DNA from: Methanosarcina sp.
GTDB taxonomy: Archaea > Halobacteriota > Methanosarcinia > Methanosarcinales > Methanosarcinaceae
Assembly: GCF_028693135.1 (NCBI RefSeq)
Contig: NZ_JAQUVZ010000002.1
Location: forward strand, 124,001 to 188,000
Reading direction: 5' to 3'
Length of the DNA: 64,000 nt
Shown: positions 45,953-63,037 of the stretch, in pieces
How positions within the stretch are numbered: the first letter of the stretch is position 1
Layout: every line of letters starts with the position of its first letter
Program-made: the position numbers and the translations under genes
The notes under the pieces: model-generated
What the model was told of the DNA's origin: nothing
The model's database searches: none
The model's input: the letters and a program-made list of their open reading frames with translations, nothing else

Positions 45953-47119
45953 TCATCCTGAAAGTGCCAGGATTATTTTCTTTATTTCAGCTATGGGAGC
46001 ATCTGTTCTGAAAGAGGTCCCGCTGAAATGAGTCCTTGAGCCTTCAAACCCGCTGGCTTTAAGGGCCTCTACCAGAATCTCGATCCCTGTTGCAGAAACT
46101 CCAAGTTCCTTGCAGATCACGTGCTGATCATAGAACATGGGAATGTCGAGTTCGTCCCTGCAGAATGTAATTATTTTTTTTGCTTTATCTTTCGTGTTAA
46201 GAGGGTGAGCTTCAAGCTCAGAAATCACTTCATTGCAGAACTCCGGCTCTTTGAAGGGTCCAAGCCACAGAGGTCCTGCAATCTTTGTCAGTGCCCCGCA
46301 AGCAGGGCATCCCCGGTCAATATGAACGGCAAGCCCATAGACAGACCCTCTGAACCCACATTTAGGGCAATGAATACTGAATCCCACGGACTTCAGAGTC
46401 CTGTCAACCTTTTTAGTCCCGTGGAGCACCTCAAGGTAACCACGGACATAATGGCGAGTGACATGGGAAAGTAAGGGCTGCATCCCTTTTTCGTGTTTTG
46501 CAAGCTCTCTGGCACAGGCTCCGAGCAGGACCCTTAAGCCCATCTCGCTATGATATTCCGTGTTCAGAGGTACGGCTGCATACTTTCGGATCCCAGAGTT
46601 CAGGTGGGCTCCACAGAGAGGAGCAGTATCTGTTGCAGTAACTGAGAGCATACTCTGTGCCGACGTTGCGGCTGCATCAAGGTAAGGCGCAGGAGACCCA
46701 AACGGGTCAACATCCACGATATGGAATTTCTGTTCATGAAGCAGAACATTTGCATTCTTACGTGTAACCTGAGTTTTTTCCTCAAGCCCATTAATTTTTA
46801 TATTTTCCTTTATCAGTTCAAAGGCTTCAGGGCTCCAGTCATTCATAGTCGCATGTATTCCGACTTCCCCTGCGATCCTGAGCCCCCGGATTCCCGATGC
46901 TGAAAAGGCATCAACGTAGCGGATCTCCTCTCTCTGTATGTCTTTTCTTGAGAGAAGCCTCTCCACAAATGCTGCAGTTGCTGCAACATTGATATCACGG
47001 TTAAGTTCCATCTCCGGGTTATAGAACACCGGCGCTGCCGAGGGAGGGAAATTTGCGTCCGGAGGCGGAACCGGAACCGAAATTTTTGTTGTCCCTTCCA
47101 CTATAGTTCTACATATCAT
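45953..47119 (-). CDS. trm1: tRNA (guanine(26)-N2)-dimethyltransferase Trm1
   Basis: Methylates G26 of tRNA, 388 residues. N-terminal [33 protein letters not shown] (positions about 9-41) is the family signature; the SAM site [16 protein letters not shown] and catalytic [15 protein letters not shown] follow. A zinc finger CPKC...CPAC lies at about residues 245-270, then the C-terminal winged-helix-like domain with [19 protein letters not shown]. It is complete compared with archaeal relatives. Confidence 0.96.
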
Positions 47120-47144: not shown

Positions 47145-47783
47145 TTATTTTACAGTGATGGTCATCTGCATGTTCGAATACCCACGTACATTGAAATTGT
47201 AGCTTCCGGTTTCGCTGAATGTATAGTTCAGGGTGTTTCCGTACCCAAGCCTTTGATCCTCAAAAAGCCCTTCCTCGCTGCTCAGAGTAAAAACACTGGA
47301 TTCTTCAAAATTTCTCCACACAACTATATCCCCTGTATTGACCTCCAGCTCGGAGGGAATAAATAGATAATTCCTTAGCCTTACGAGGTACGTTTCTGGC
47401 TCGGTTCCAGCAGGCTGCACAGTCCCGGCTTCTTCTTCATCGGTCACATTTTCGGTTTGCTCTTCTTCAATTTCATCCCCCATACCCGGAGTTAACGTTT
47501 CTAGAGGTGTTTCTCCCTCTACGGCTGTTTCTGTTTCTTGCGGCGTCCCCGCTTCCTCAAATGGTTCCGTTTCCACCGGCGTTTCCATATCTTCTGACGT
47601 TATTGCCTCTTCTGGGGTCTGCACTTCTTCAGGTATCTGCGTCCCTCCTGAACCACCTGAACCACCTGAACTGCCGGAATCCCTCAGGCCGTCCTCTTCT
47701 TGCCCCTGATCCCCTCCCCAATTCAGGAAACCAAACACTAACACTGCCAGGACTACGAGGAGCAGAATGAGCTTTTTTATCAC
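47145..47783 (-). CDS. Membrane-anchored cupredoxin-like protein (no copper ligands), single domain
   Basis: A 212-residue exported protein. An N-terminal uncleaved anchor ([18 protein letters not shown]) is followed by a Ser/Gly linker and about 75 residues rich in Thr, Pro and Glu, then a cupredoxin-type beta-sandwich (about 128-212). The domain has [18 protein letters not shown] and [13 protein letters not shown], the two conserved strands of the family. The copper ligands are absent: the histidine after WxN is replaced and the C-x-x-H/M loop is missing. One of three such proteins here. Confidence 0.75.
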
Positions 47784-48182
47784 TATTACTTCCCCCTGCG
47801 AAACTTTACTTTTTTACTCCCAATTCAATATAAGCCATATTAAATAATAACACTTTATTATAATAAGCTTTATTTTAAAAAATAGTTTGTTTGTAATCGA
47901 TTTTACTGTTTTTTCCCTAAAAAACGAATTTCCGGAAGTACGGCTAATTGGCATTATGAATTGGATTTTGGCATTATTAATTGGGTTTTTGCCTCTAAGC
48001 CCTGTTTATTCAGGATACGGGTGTAGAAAGTTATCAGAAATAGACACGAGTGGCAAAGATTTAGAATCCAAAAAAAGTAAGTTTACTGGAAAGTTTTGCC
48101 ACCTTTCCAGATGAAGCCTTTGTAAGCTTTTTGAGGTATTTTATCCATGAGTACCTTCAAAAAACTTATTAAGGAAACTTAT
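47784..48182. other. Intergenic region without a supported gene
   Basis: About 400 bases. A 75-codon plus-strand frame (47887-48114) has a hydrophobic stretch, MNWILALLIGFLPLSP, but no ribosome site and internal ATGAATTGGATTTTGG-type repeats, so I do not call it a gene. Confidence 0.4.
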
Positions 48183-48710
48183 TCAGGGCTTGTTAACAGT
48201 TATATTGACATTCATTCTGGGCTGCCCGATGATGGTGAAGTTGTAAGCCCCGGTTTCATTGAATGTATAGGCAAAGGAACGCCTGTACACAAGACCCTGA
48301 TCCTCAAAGAGGTCTTCTTCACTTGTAAGGGTAAAGACTCTCCTCGGACTGTCCTGATAGTTTATCCAGGCAACTGTTTCTCCTTGTTTGATATCAAGGC
48401 TTGAAGGATACGCTCTATAGTTGTCCAGTCTTATAGTATAGGGAGTTTTCCTTATACTGGAGGTATTAACTACTGGTCCTTCTTCGGTTTCATTTTCTTC
48501 CGGAGTTACATCTTCTTCCTCTGTCTCCGTTACTACAGGGGTTTCAGTCTCTGCCAGGGTTTCCGTTTCTTCCGGAGTTGCAATTTCCTCTGGAGTTACT
48601 GTTTCTCCAGGTGTCATGTTTTCTTCCGGGGAGGGCTGTTCATTTTCAGTGCATCCCGAGAACAAAACTACGCCTAAGACTAGAAGTAGAACAATGATTT
48701 TTGTTTTCAT
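48183..48710 (-). CDS. Cupredoxin-like lipoprotein (no copper ligands), single domain
   Basis: A 175-residue lipoprotein starting MKTKIIVLLLVLGVVLFSGC, with the lipobox cysteine at about residue 20. It has an acidic Thr/Pro/Glu spacer of about 70 residues and a C-terminal domain with YPSSLDIKQGETVAWINYQ and YTFNETGAYNFTII. It resembles the neighbours at 47145 and 49308. A GTG at 48722 is a possible longer start, but ATG 48710 has GGGG six bases before it. The domain has no Cys or His at the metal positions. Confidence 0.75.
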   Translation of the reverse strand: MKTKIIVLLLVLGVVLFSGCTENEQPSPEENMTPGETVTPEEIATPEETETLAETETPVVTETEEEDVTPEENETEEGPVVNTSSIRKTPYTIRLDNYRAYPSSLDIKQGETVAWINYQDSPRRVFTLTSEEDLFEDQGLVYRRSFAYTFNETGAYNFTIIGQPRMNVNITVNKP

Positions 48711-49307
48711 CTTATTCCCCACAATATCTTTTGGTTATGAAATTAGGAAATCTGCGAAAATAATTCTAATTTAGATCGAGTTTTATTTTTGATGCTGTGG
48801 TCGTAAAATAACCAAATGTTTGGAATATTAGTTAGATATTCTTGTTTATGTAATAACTAATTTTATTTAATCTTAATCGATTGCTTTAATAGAAATTTCT
48901 CTTTTTTCAAACTTTTAGCTTTTTATGTACCATTTAAGTACATATAAATATATTTTTGCAATATTCTTTTTATATCTATCTATTTTTCAAAGCAAACTTC
49001 TTAATGAACTTAAGTGCTTTGCTTGCATATAAAGATATTTTAGATTTCTGCAAACACACTTTCAGCTAGAATAAAAAAATTCCTACCTTAAAATCTTCCT
49101 TATGGCTCTAAACAACCCGCACAATACCTTTGAGAGATATTTTTTGAATGCAGATTAATGAAAAAAAGTAAAATTATCAAAAAATGGTTCCCTTCTGGAA
49201 AGGCTGATCTCCATTTTTACCTGAATTAGCTTCAGTTTGAGCTAGCTTACCAGTCAGGGATCCATATTTGCTATTCGTTCTTCTCTTACTTCACAGAACG
49301 ATTTATC
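48711..49307. other. AT-rich intergenic region without a gene
   Basis: About 600 bases between two cupredoxin-like genes. No convincing open frame, repeat or RNA is seen; the region near 48950-49080 is almost pure AT. Confidence 0.5.
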
Positions 49308-50468
49308 TTATTTCACTGTTAGAATGAACTCTGAGTCAGGAATCTCCTCCAGCTTAAAGGTATATTCTCCGGATTCATTAAAGGTATATGTAAAGATTCT
49401 TCCATAGCCAACGGCCTGGTTCTCGAAAAGACCCTCTTCACTTATTAGCGTGAATGTGCGTTTGGGCCTGTTCAGGTTATTCCAGACTACGGCTTCCCCC
49501 GTGTTGAGCTCAAGAGTCTCCGGGTAAAAGACAGATCCACGTATCAATACTGTGGAACTCTGTATATCTTCTACCCTTTGCGCAGGAGTTACTCCCTCAG
49601 TAGGTGTGGGAGTCGCCCCTTCTTCCTCCTGTTGTATAGTTTCTCTTTCCGATAGCGGAGTTTCTCCTGCAGTTACCCTGGATTTAACTAGAACGGTACC
49701 TTCCAGGCCTCTTTCACCTTTAATGCTAAAGTCAAAGGTTCCGGTTTCATTAAAGGTATACTTATAAGATCGGCCATAACCAAGGCTAAAATCTTCCCAG
49801 AGCCTGTCCTTGCTTACCAGGACAAAGGTCCTTTTTGGCTTGTTAAGGTTGCGCCATACAACTGTATCATACTGGTGTATTTCGGTAATATCAGGACTGA
49901 AGGCATTATTGATTAAGACAAAAGTATGTGTCTGAGAAACAGACTTGTTTTCTTCAGAGGTGTTGCCCGGATCCATTTCACTGGTTTCGGTAGTTTCCTC
50001 TTGCTGTATCTGACTAGTTTCTCTTTCCGATAATGGAGCTCCGGTAGTTTCCCCGGATTCACTCACCACAACTGAACCTTGCAGGCCTTTTTCACCTTTA
50101 ATACTGAAGTCAAAGGTTCCGGTTTCATTAAAGGTATACTTAAAAGATCGGCCATAACCAAGGCTAAAATCTTCCCAGAGATCGTCCTCTCCTACAAGAA
50201 CAAAGGTCCTTTTTGGCTTGTTAAGGTTACGCCATACAACAGTATCATACTGGTTTATTTCTGTTATTTCAGGACTGAAGGAATTATTGATTAAGACAAT
50301 AGTATGCGTCTGAGAAACATATTTATTTTCGTCAGAGTTGCTGATCTGATTCATTTCACTGGTTTCGGTAGTTTCCCCTTGAGATAGGGCCACAGCTGTC
50401 GAGCCCGTAAGCAGGATCAAAACAAAAACTGCCAGTACCCTGAGTGTAAAACATTTATAGGCTACCAT
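49308..50468 (-). CDS. Secreted triple-domain cupredoxin-like protein (no copper ligands)
   Basis: A 386-residue exported protein: signal peptide (VLAVFVLILLTGSTAVALS), then three cupredoxin-like domains at about 53-137, 183-262 and 300-386, separated by Thr/Ser/Glu linkers. Each has ITEINQYDTVVWRNLNKPKR-type and LGYGRSFKYTFNETGTFDF-type strands. Domains one and two are almost identical, also in DNA, so they come from a recent internal duplication; the third is more distant. None has the His/Cys/Met ligands. GGAGG lies six bases before the ATG. N-glycosylation sites (FNETG) occur in all domains. Confidence 0.8.
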   Translation of the reverse strand: MVAYKCFTLRVLAVFVLILLTGSTAVALSQGETTETSEMNQISNSDENKYVSQTHTIVLINNSFSPEITEINQYDTVVWRNLNKPKRTFVLVGEDDLWEDFSLGYGRSFKYTFNETGTFDFSIKGEKGLQGSVVVSESGETTGAPLSERETSQIQQEETTETSEMDPGNTSEENKSVSQTHTFVLINNAFSPDITEIHQYDTVVWRNLNKPKRTFVLVSKDRLWEDFSLGYGRSYKYTFNETGTFDFSIKGERGLEGTVLVKSRVTAGETPLSERETIQQEEEGATPTPTEGVTPAQRVEDIQSSTVLIRGSVFYPETLELNTGEAVVWNNLNRPKRTFTLISEEGLFENQAVGYGRIFTYTFNESGEYTFKLEEIPDSEFILTVK

Positions 50469-50499: not shown

Positions 50500-50890
50500 A
50501 GCAGGATACCCGTTGCTTTAGCTGCGGGAGGAATGCGTAATCTTCCCCATCCTGCTCTGTTGAATTCATTTTTTATTAATGTAATGGGAGTGAGAAAAAC
50601 ACTCCCCACCTACATACGTAGGGTAATGCGTATCCGAATTGTGGAGTCAATTCCGGAATCCGACCTCCTCTCGATCTGATATGGAAAGGTTTAACGATGC
50701 AAGCACTGTCCCTACCTCTCAGGACTGTTTAACCGGCATCCTTAGAGCCTTAAACTGAGGCGGCATTCAAGGGTAACTATTTCTTTCCTATCGTTTACCG
50801 ATTTTGTTAACTCCAATCGGTGATCTGGTCAACCAGGGCACATTACATGCCTGCCACTTTAGTGGCGGGTAGTTGACACTAACGGATAGA
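50500..50890 (-). mobile_element. Probable IS200/IS605-type remnant or MITE without transposase
   Basis: Both ends carry the hairpins typical of single-strand-transposing IS200/IS605 elements: CCCGTTGC-TTTA-GCTGCGGG (50509-50528) at one end and CCTGCCAC-TTTA-GTGGCGGG (50850-50869) followed by TAGTTGAC at the other. In between are compact hairpins (GGGAGTG/CACTCCC at 50586-50606; CTAC/GTAG just after) and a GC-rich structured stretch (50710-50780) that resembles the guide-RNA scaffold next to tnpB genes. There is no tnpA or tnpB. Family assignment is from pattern memory. It lies directly upstream of the triple cupredoxin gene. Confidence 0.5.
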
Positions 50891-51044: not shown

Positions 51045-52286
51045 TCACATGATGTTCCATAAAAGCAAAGCCACGGACCCTGCGACTGCAATGATCCCGA
51101 ATGTGTTTTTAGCAAGGGGAAAAAGACTTGCAGAACCTGAAATCTTTGAAAGCAGAATTTTATTTACAGTACTTACAAGGCTTGCAAGCACTGCAGTATT
51201 TGCTGCGACTTCATAAGAGATATTTCCGCTTACGGCAAGGAGGGTTACAGAGACTATCACTCCGGAGCTGCTAACAAGAGCCCCCAGGGCTGTTATGTAT
51301 ATTCCGGCAGTCCCTGCAATGTCATAGGCAAAGTTTCCTATGACGAGAATCAGGGTAAAAGCAATGCCAAATTTAAATGCCTGACTGAGCGAGAAAGGAG
51401 ACTGAATCTTAAGCTCGCCCCCGCTTATCGAGCAGAATTTCTTACTATGCCTGATAACTATTACTATGGAAACGGTAATAAGTACAAGCTGAGAAGGAAG
51501 CATAAACAGAGTTGTCTGGCCTGTCGGATCAACTATAAAGGCTAATACAAGGTTTCGAATGAGCATGGAAATATTGCAGAGCAGAATTCCTGAAAGTACG
51601 GGATCTTCCATCGCCTCTGCTTTTTTTGAGAGCCCTGCAAGTGCTCCTGTGGTAGCTTCACTGTTTATAAAGCCTCCAAGAAAGCCTGAATAGCACACGC
51701 CGCGTTTTGTCCCGAACTTTCTCAGGAGAACATAGCTTAAAAAACTGATAAGGGAAACCAGGATAACAATAAGAATTGCCGACCTGAGGTTTACAAGCCC
51801 GAAGAACTGTTTTTCCGGCATCACCGGATAAAGTATGAAAGCAACAGCCAGAAACTGTATGGCATTATAAAGCTCTTCTTTTGTCAGGTTTCCTGCAAAC
51901 TGGTGAAGGGGCTGCTTCTGAATAAGGAGGAAAGATACAACTATTGAAGAAACAATAGCAAACAGGCCGTAGTCATAGCCAACAAGGACACCCATCACGA
52001 AAATAAAGAAGAGAGTAATAGGACTTGTAATTCCTATCCGCTTGAAGAGAAATATTTTGGAATAGGTAATTATGGAGCATATAGCTGCGAAAAAAAGCGT
52101 GGCTACGTAAACGAAGCCTGTTCCCGCGGATTCGCTCACAAGAGCAACGAGCATGCCTGTTATACAGGTTATGCTGTAACTCCTGACACCCGCAAAGATC
52201 TCATGCTCAAGGCCTCTGTGTTCCCTTTCCACCCCTACCATGATCCCTATCAAAAAGGCAATGGCAAGTTTTGTCAGGAAATCCAC
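51045..52286 (-). CDS. MgtC/SapB-DUF4010 membrane protein
   Basis: A 413-residue polytopic protein. The first 130 residues form an MgtC-like domain (AFLIGIMVGVEREHRGLE, then GVRSYSITCITGMLVALV). The remainder is a DUF4010-type region with about eight helices and the conserved GFLGGFINSEATTGALAGLSKK. Relatives are proposed transporters or stress-related, but their substrate is not known. The gene lies after the IS-like remnant in the same direction. Confidence 0.9.
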   Translation of the reverse strand: MDFLTKLAIAFLIGIMVGVEREHRGLEHEIFAGVRSYSITCITGMLVALVSESAGTGFVYVATLFFAAICSIITYSKIFLFKRIGITSPITLFFIFVMGVLVGYDYGLFAIVSSIVVSFLLIQKQPLHQFAGNLTKEELYNAIQFLAVAFILYPVMPEKQFFGLVNLRSAILIVILVSLISFLSYVLLRKFGTKRGVCYSGFLGGFINSEATTGALAGLSKKAEAMEDPVLSGILLCNISMLIRNLVLAFIVDPTGQTTLFMLPSQLVLITVSIVIVIRHSKKFCSISGGELKIQSPFSLSQAFKFGIAFTLILVIGNFAYDIAGTAGIYITALGALVSSSGVIVSVTLLAVSGNISYEVAANTAVLASLVSTVNKILLSKISGSASLFPLAKNTFGIIAVAGSVALLLWNIM

Positions 52287-61573: not shown

Positions 61574-63037
61574 ATGAATTATTCAGCGGGAATAAGGGTA
61601 TTTTTGGCAGTGGGCCTGTTTTTCTGTCTTCTTTCAGGAGCAGAAGCTGCAGATCCTCTTGATCAGGATGGCGGAGATGTGAACCTTTCGGAAGTCAAGG
61701 CTTTTGACCTGTTGTGCAGATGTGAAACCGGGTGCATAGTAAATGCCGTATCAATATCTTCAACCGGGGACTATCTTGCAGCCGGAGGGTTTGATCAAAA
61801 CGTTTCTTTTTTTAATTCCAAAGGGACACAACTTTGGAATTATAAGACTGGAGATATTGTTTATACAGTATCGATTTCTTCAGATGGGTCTAGAGTTGCG
61901 GCAGGAAGCAACGATAAAAAAGTTTACCTTTTTAACCGGGAAGGAGACCTGTTATGGAGCCGAAGAACCGGAGGCAATATCAACAGTGTAGCGGTTTCTT
62001 CCGACGGTATGTACATTGCGGCAGGCAGCGAAGACGGTAAGATTTATTTCTTAAACAGGGAAGGAAAACTTTTATGGAGTTTTGATTCCGAGGGCGCTAT
62101 CCGCAGTGTTGCCATTTCCAAAGATGGGGGCTACGTAGCTGCCGGAAATGCAAACAATTACGTCTGCCTCATGGACGGGGAGGGAAAAACAATATGGAGA
62201 CGAAAAACCGGAAGTTTGATCAATAGCGTAAGCATGACTCCGTATGCTCACTATGTGGCTGCCGGGGGATCTAATTATAATGTTTATCTTTTTGACCGTA
62301 AAGGGGAGTTTTCATGGATAAAAAACCCGGGTTACTGGGTCAGCAGTGTCTCTTTAACGACAAATGGCTCGCATCTTGCAGCAGGAAGTTTTGACAACAA
62401 GATTTACCTGTTTAACCTCACTGGGGCAAAACTATGGGATTACCAGGTAAAAGACGACGTCTATACTGTAGAGATATCCCCAGACTCGTCATTCATTGCA
62501 GCCGGAAGCTGGGACGATAACCTCTATGTCCTTAATATGGCAGGGGAAGAACTATGGAACTACAACTGCGGGGGAAATATCAATAGCCTGGATGTTTCTC
62601 GCGACAGCTCAACCATTGCTGTCGGAAGTGATGCAGGAGCAGTATATCTTTTTGAACGAAATTCCACTGCCTTTGCAATACTGCTAGGGGACGAAAGCTT
62701 CCTGCCAAAAGAAACTACCCGGGAGACAGATACCGCTACTGCAGTAAAAGTCATCCTGCCCATAGAAGATACTGCCGTTACGGGGGGAGTTGAAAATCGG
62801 GTGGAAGACGCCCCAGCTACCTCAAGCAGCGTGGATGGGAATACAAAAACCGGAGAAAAATCTTCAAAGCTTTTGGAAATTTTTGATTCGGTAAAGTTTC
62901 CTATGGCTCTTCTAATTGGAGCTCTGGCATGTACAGTCTTCTTCTTGAGAAGGAGAATCCTCAAACAAAAGGAAATGAATGAGATCCTTGAGGAATTTGA
63001 AAACCTTGAAGAAAACGATACATCAGGGAATAATTGA
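61574..63037 (+). CDS. Membrane-anchored beta-propeller protein (WD40/PQQ-like)
   Basis: A 487-residue surface protein. A signal peptide (VFLAVGLFFCLLSGAEA) is followed by about eight repeats of roughly 41 residues of the form VYTVSISSDGSRVAAGSNDK-KVYLFN-REGDLLW, a beta-propeller. A Thr/Glu-rich spacer (about 370-430) leads to a membrane helix ALLIGALACTVFFL near 448 and a charged cytosolic tail. So the propeller is outside and anchored at the C-terminus. Function is unknown, possibly adhesion or binding. No neighbour explains it. Confidence 0.85.
   Translation: MNYSAGIRVFLAVGLFFCLLSGAEAADPLDQDGGDVNLSEVKAFDLLCRCETGCIVNAVSISSTGDYLAAGGFDQNVSFFNSKGTQLWNYKTGDIVYTVSISSDGSRVAAGSNDKKVYLFNREGDLLWSRRTGGNINSVAVSSDGMYIAAGSEDGKIYFLNREGKLLWSFDSEGAIRSVAISKDGGYVAAGNANNYVCLMDGEGKTIWRRKTGSLINSVSMTPYAHYVAAGGSNYNVYLFDRKGEFSWIKNPGYWVSSVSLTTNGSHLAAGSFDNKIYLFNLTGAKLWDYQVKDDVYTVEISPDSSFIAAGSWDDNLYVLNMAGEELWNYNCGGNINSLDVSRDSSTIAVGSDAGAVYLFERNSTAFAILLGDESFLPKETTRETDTATAVKVILPIEDTAVTGGVENRVEDAPATSSSVDGNTKTGEKSSKLLEIFDSVKFPMALLIGALACTVFFLRRRILKQKEMNEILEEFENLEENDTSGNN

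Follow-up and report, generated by a model that had tools for sequence, protein, structure and literature searches.

We analysed a window of 64,000 nucleotides from the genome of a Methanosarcina species (assembly GCF_028693135.1, contig NZ_JAQUVZ010000002.1, positions 124,001 to 188,000 of the forward strand), in which three minus-strand open reading frames (ORFs), p1, p2 and p3, lie side by side at positions 47145-50468 and encode one, one and three cupredoxin-fold domains, respectively. A preliminary description of this DNA had reported three adjacent genes with five domains of the cupredoxin pattern, and all of them were recovered. We propose, with a probability of about two in three, that p1 to p3 are exported and anchored proteins in which one or three copper-free cupredoxin beta-sandwiches stand on acidic Thr/Glu-rich stalks, and that they act as rigid structural or recognition modules of the cell surface and not as electron carriers. 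The fold, the loss of three ligands in all five domains, the class-wide conservation, the purifying selection and the gene neighbourhood are computed results.

The cupredoxin fold of the window domains is well supported by structure models and sequence profiles. In Pfam, p3 matched Cupredoxin_1 (PF13473) with 37.2 bits (E 3.1e-9), above the 27-bit cut-off, whereas p1 remained under it (15.4 bits) and p2 gave no cupredoxin match in this search; p1 and p2 thus owe the cupredoxin name to sequence profiles and structural comparison. An NCBIfam search of the window proteins returned cupredoxin matches (amicyanin, plastocyanin, halocyanin) at sub-threshold level only. The p2 domain was modelled by AlphaFold2 from an alignment of 99 sequences, with a mean predicted local distance difference test score (pLDDT) of 96.9 and a predicted template modelling score (pTM) of 0.86, and its structural neighbours, identified with Foldseek and VIA-align, are plastocyanins and amicyanins (Z 12.3 to plastocyanin 1bxu, 1.7 Å over 82 residues). 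The comparison of a predicted structure with plastocyanin, proposed earlier as a check, thus returned the cupredoxin fold. A control profile built from 28 domains without the site Cys still finds 1bxu at 9.7e-11, and the match is therefore independent of copper-binding rows. The model of full-length p3 consists of a low-confidence N-terminal helix followed by three beta domains, with pLDDT falling below 50 in the segments between them; it was obtained from a shallow alignment of 9 rows (pTM 0.34), and the relative placement of its domains is not interpretable. The best structural and sequence matches, plastocyanin and amicyanin, share with the window domains the fold, the strand order and the V-x-W-x-N and F-x-x-x-G-x-Y motifs, but differ from them in the copper site.

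The four ligand columns (first His, Cys, second His and axial Met) were read from an alignment of a named set of 100 domains, which includes the five window domains and is anchored on a complete-site cupredoxin of the same genome. Cys and both His are missing in all five window domains, and the axial position holds Met in p1 (M205) and p2 (M170) and Leu, Leu and Ser in domains 1 to 3 of p3. The earlier statement that no copy retains a ligand is thus correct for Cys and both His, but not for the axial Met of p1 and p2. The lipobox Cys24 is the sole Cys of p2, which has no His; p3 has a Cys6 within its signal sequence and three isolated, unclustered His at positions 55, 181 and 198. The residue that replaces the first His varies with the alignment (Phe in two, Arg in one, Lys in one and His in none). 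A cupredoxin that lacks Cys and His is unable to hold type 1 copper, and neither such a site nor electron transport would be possible in these domains. The former copper site would be filled mainly by hydrophobic residues, often with Met kept (F/L - V/I/L - Q/Y/E - M). Since the ligand feature was tested and is absent, we file the family as copper-free proteins of the cupredoxin fold and not as functional cupredoxins. The complete-site cupredoxin on which the alignment is anchored (G000:C16, L044:5918-6370), also a lipoprotein with a cupredoxin domain, is distantly related: a profile built from the five window domains finds it at E 1.5e-11. It keeps H-C-H-M and sits on a separate branch of the tree.

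Beyond the window, the Cys column of the named set is occupied by V (36), L (24), I (23), C (14) and A (3). Among 66 loci selected by profile or protein similarity, Cys is missing in 82 of 97 domains and Met present in 62, figures that do not amount to a census: two full-site genes are double-counted, one Cys-free row is a fragment, searching genomes G013 and G028 with PF13473 contributed six of the loci, and several were fetched for full-site cupredoxins. In the ANME-2-like family f2 (ANME, anaerobic methanotrophic archaea), the site residues are mostly basic (R-L-R-K or R-L-R-I). Of the four positions that formerly held ligands, three carry Arg, Arg and Lys in the ANME-2-like loci L108, L111-L114, L200, L204, L206, L207, L211, L215 and L236, which from sequence could represent an anion site.

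The anchor or signal peptide and the Thr/Pro/Glu spacers attributed beforehand to each protein are all evident: p2 has the lipobox LFSGC, p1 an N-terminal hydrophobic segment and p3 a signal peptide, and the spacers are 44-64% Thr/Pro/Glu, with a net charge of -6 to -31. These features support a predicted location of the domains outside the membrane. Export and anchoring would place them on the outer side, perhaps near the S-layer, the acidic Thr/Glu-rich spacers would keep them away from the membrane, and the domains themselves may be rigid structural or recognition elements that bind a protein or glycan partner. No match to DUF1608, the domain of the major S-layer protein of Methanosarcina, was present among the Pfam matches of p1 to p3 up to an E of 1. 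The preliminary description had suggested structural or ligand-binding domains derived from electron carriers; kinship of fold and loss of Cys and His agree with this suggestion, and the functional class appears the most likely one from sequences and models. Four of the five window domains also carry N-x-S/T in an F-N-x-S/T-G turn, the equivalent of which lies in plastocyanin at the pole opposite the copper. The turn N-x-S/T occurs in 70 of the 100 domains of the named set, a count biased because the set was found with a pattern containing that motif, and, in the similarity-selected loci, in 42 of 82 Cys-free versus 1 of 15 Cys-containing domains (two full-site genes being double-counted). We dropped it as evidence for the family, as it is weak and the domains are related by descent. 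A different architecture was found in G035 (L045:4640-5587), where the protein combines a family domain with two PKD-like repeats and, at its C-terminus, a membrane segment, which we take to resemble a putative archaeosortase-type signal.

The family is widespread. With p3 as query, a match was found in 53 of 59 genomes (own genome included), and a profile of ten domain rows matched 203 of the 237 genomes of the class (own included) and 33 of 39 genera, 177 of 237 being the safer figure, in which Cys-plus-Met members are still included. The ratio of nonsynonymous to synonymous substitution rates (dN/dS) ranged from 0.11 to 0.48 across 15 comparisons, including one of two p3 domains with each other, with the lowest values for p1 and p2 and the highest for p3 domain 3. 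These low values indicate purifying selection and speak against decay. Single decayed copies do exist: the p3 orthologue of G013 (G013:C1:1719626-1720433, overlapping L008 and L034) is broken by several stop codons, while p2 and p1 are open there, and in G002 (L048:5731-5922) p1 has shrunk to a short fragment that stands between its neighbours p2 and trm1. That the proteins are what is left of former copper proteins and are decaying is nevertheless very improbable given the dN/dS values, the presence in most of the class, the conserved synteny and the high-confidence fold, and is already contradicted for p1 and p2.

The gene neighbourhood is conserved as well. In 51 of 78 named loci a family member is followed on the same strand by trm1 at a distance of no more than 1.2 kb, which is at most 400 bp in 44 of them (trm1 being matched in part in L083) and 600-1,110 bp in seven; trm1 is missing from the covered stretch of the other 27 loci, several of which are short contigs, paralogues or distant bacterial matches. 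Among 20 larger loci, p2 and/or p1 stand beside trm1 in 12 from Methanosarcina and a single-domain gene does so in G034 and in G051, the latter from another family, and the remaining six are one contig that stops short of trm1 or paralogues elsewhere. Genes with Cys plus Met (L109, L115) and genes with R-L-R-K or R-L-R-T (L108, L112-L114, L117) occupy the same place immediately before trm1 as the genes of Methanosarcina, and this therefore seems to be one orthologous locus with three kinds of site. A functional tie to tRNA modification was considered and rejected, as the synteny is real but no mechanism was found for it.

Cupredoxin annotations get read as redox proteins. In the available text of PMC6315138, two cupredoxin genes of Methanosarcina barkeri are listed as possibly involved in electron uptake during direct interspecies electron transfer, and its Table 5 gives Ga0072459_111371, which has a lipobox, as 7.3-fold and Ga0072459_113267 as 2.9-fold up; the listing is repeated in PMC6864099. 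A PF13473 search of genome G028 identified only two places above the cut-off, at 1.653 Mb and 3.865 Mb. The protein encoded at 3.865 Mb has two domains, neither of them with the ligand set, and that at 1.653 Mb (L165, G028:C2:1653521) is a lipoprotein with H-C-E-M, in which Glu replaces the second His and which, judging from these residues, may bind copper unusually or not at all. In G028, fpoD, echE, frhA and vhtA match the available gene numbers of PMC6315138 in order, position and strand; of five UbiA numbers, four fit by coordinate, with no UbiA match near 1453 and two UbiA matches without a number in the table. Interpolation gives number 3271 for the gene at 3.865 Mb (3267 in the paper) and 1403 for that at 1.653 Mb (1371 in the paper), the latter being 32 off, or about 26 once a UbiA point is added. 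From this gene order we infer that G028 is M. barkeri MS and, if the mapping is right, that Ga0072459_113267 is the two-domain ligand-less member, unable to be a type 1 copper carrier.

It has been proposed for the M. barkeri cupredoxins that they take part in extracellular electron transfer, and family members could accordingly be seen as its active electron carriers; the two fold-changes and the identity of the G028 genes, with a gene order that fits the M. barkeri strain, would agree with this. The gene that fits Ga0072459_113267, in turn, lacks the Cys/His/Met set in both domains, and type 1 copper is impossible without Cys and His, which leaves such a role most unlikely. If the mapping holds, Ga0072459_113267 should leave the list of electron carriers, and the family would become a testable, class-wide surface module with trm1-linked and FilR1-linked loci. 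Two other assignments were considered and dropped. The p1 and p2 genes do not fit the listed M. barkeri cupredoxins, as the predicted number of their G028 copies, at 2.44 Mb, is about 2057 and close to neither 1371 nor 3267. MM2531, a hypothetical protein of the M. mazei concanavalin A eluate according to the available text of PMC4350412, is not claimed as the p1 orthologue, as its spacing from dnaK (MM2505) would by our estimate correspond to a place nearer to 55 kb than to 47 kb in the window. PMC4350412 was the sole Methanosarcina paper that a search by locus tag turned up. No earlier description of ligand-less cupredoxins in these archaea was found in open-access titles and abstracts.

Several observations weigh against our proposal that p1 to p3 are copper-free surface modules. 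The presumed family member Ga0072459_113267 is up in electron-consuming growth according to PMC6315138, from which a redox role could be read. The best E of the domain profile is weaker than 1e-10 in 26 of the 203 matching genomes, 14 of them of family f7, and the profile also finds full-site cupredoxins (6.6e-9 to 3.9e-8), which the matches in these 26 may simply be, a match alone being no proof of a ligand-less site. A clade formed by f3 and related named loci retains Cys plus Met, and one of its members (L110) bears a His. A tree of 100 rows and 82 columns, computed with the ligand columns removed and without a reliable root, favours the proposal in that 79 rows of the family group together (98/89) and the eight full-site rows fall in a separate set of 12 (99/94); the six Cys-plus-Met rows are one clade (100/99) inside the 79-row set. 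Nine Cys-free rows, mostly of the Methanoperedens type, belong to neither of these two sets, and the Cys state requires at least three changes on the tree, so that the loss of Cys need not be a single event.

Finally, the axial Met is kept in 69 of the 100 domains of the named set, which makes a soft-metal contact possible. A metal might thus still be bound through this Met, through carboxylates of the S-E-D/E-x-L-F/W-E loop or through residues of a partner, and the domain would then be a metal sensor or chaperone. Structural matches to cupredoxin-like metal proteins with other sites (EfeO, a Bacillus Cupredoxin_1 protein with zinc or copper, and FtrB) point in the same direction. We consider such a role improbable: p1 lacks His and Cys altogether, p2 has no His and no Cys other than that of its lipobox, and p3 lacks the Met as well. 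Moreover, an S-x-D-G-L-F loop is found in full-site bacterial relatives too (L121, L123), and the loop therefore need not be a new metal site.

Relatives with two or three domains outside the trm1 locus have a neighbour of their own. A divergently oriented gene of the FilR1 family lies upstream in all 11 loci read (G002, G012, G013, G015, G019, G025, G027, G028, G033, G154 and L105), two regulators being assigned by Pfam (L040, L037) and the others by similarity to these two; multi-domain matches outside this sample include G010:C13. Since each of four genomes holds only 19-27 FilR1-family matches, some genes being counted twice, chance adjacency at one locus would be rare. FilR1 of Methanosaeta harundinacea is described in the available text of PMC3991700 as a DNA-binding regulator that binds promoters of methanogenesis genes, and the multi-domain form is probably controlled by the adjacent regulator. 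It could even serve as the sensor or effector of a unit for envelope response and, together with this regulator, report on substrate or contact state or adapt the cell surface to it, as the occurrence of the pair in both Methanosarcina and g5, the small number of FilR1-family genes and the known promoter binding would allow. This is an unlikely reading: no FilR1 neighbour is present at p3, p2 and p1 of the window, the 11 loci are not independent events because they are homologous, and the FilR1-like match of G025 lies about 1.1 kb off, cut by the locus end. Equally tentative, and doubtful as a whole, is a wider scenario for a whole class of archaea, methanogens and methane oxidisers, in which a copper protein for electron transport evolved into a surface recognition module free of copper, the FilR1-linked multi-domain form being induced in direct interspecies electron transfer for cell-cell contact or aggregation and not for electron transport. 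In the genome under study, a further ligand-less lipoprotein (L043:4156-7116, G000:C58) is convergent to two tandem FilR1-like genes.

The nearest known way of working may be that of the early nodulin-like proteins (ENODLs) of plants, an analogy and not a claim of homology. ENODLs are anchored at the cell surface. Like the window proteins, they combine a cupredoxin domain unable to bind copper with a glycoprotein-like region, according to the available text of PMC4499708, and p1 to p3 follow the ENODL sequence layout of ligand-less cupredoxin domain, spacer and anchor. The window proteins differ by their archaeal lipid or membrane anchors and by up to three domains per chain; moreover, plant phytocyanins have two conserved, disulfide-bridged Cys in the same text (PMC4499708), whereas the five window domains contain no Cys at all.

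Table 1. Coordinates of p1 to p3, their domains and the flanking genes in the 64,000-nucleotide window
Feature	Position	Strand	Description
p1, 212 aa	47145..47783	-	N-terminal membrane segment, acidic Gly/Thr/Glu spacer of ~104 residues, single ligand-less cupredoxin domain; no Cys or His throughout
p1 cupredoxin-like domain	47148..47399	-	Site residues F-V-Y-M (alignment)
p2, 179 aa lipoprotein	48183..48722	-	Lipobox LFSGC (Cys24), Thr/Glu/Pro stalk, single ligand-less cupredoxin domain
p2 cupredoxin-like domain	48186..48449	-	Site residues F-I-Q-M (alignment); AlphaFold2 pLDDT 96.9
p3, 386 aa	49308..50468	-	Signal peptide, three ligand-less cupredoxin domains, linkers with pLDDT below 50
p3 domain 1	50058..50315	-	Site residues F-I-E-L (alignment, p3 model)
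p3 domain 2	49680..49937	-	Site residues F-I-E-L; in alignment A3, 84% identity to the row of domain 1
p3 domain 3	49311..49565	-	Site residues F-L-I-S (alignment, p3 model)
trm1, tRNA N2,N2-dimethylguanosine methyltransferase	45953..47119	-	25 bp downstream of p1; its place beside the family is conserved
MgtC/DUF4010 membrane protein	51045..52286	-	Upstream of the cluster; neighbour in other Methanosarcina loci too

Between p3 and the MgtC/DUF4010 gene lies a HEARO RNA (RF02033, 118.5 bits, E 7.3e-24) at 50659-50877 on the minus strand. The ORF list of the window contains no ORF of at least 80 aa in this interval, and there is therefore no IsrB/HNH gene directly beside the RNA. The window also carries genes for subunits of Fpo (F420H2 dehydrogenase), cofG/cofH-like genes and, at 61574-63037 on the plus strand, a gene for a WD40/PQQ-like beta-propeller protein that appears to have a signal peptide and, at the C-terminus, a membrane segment.

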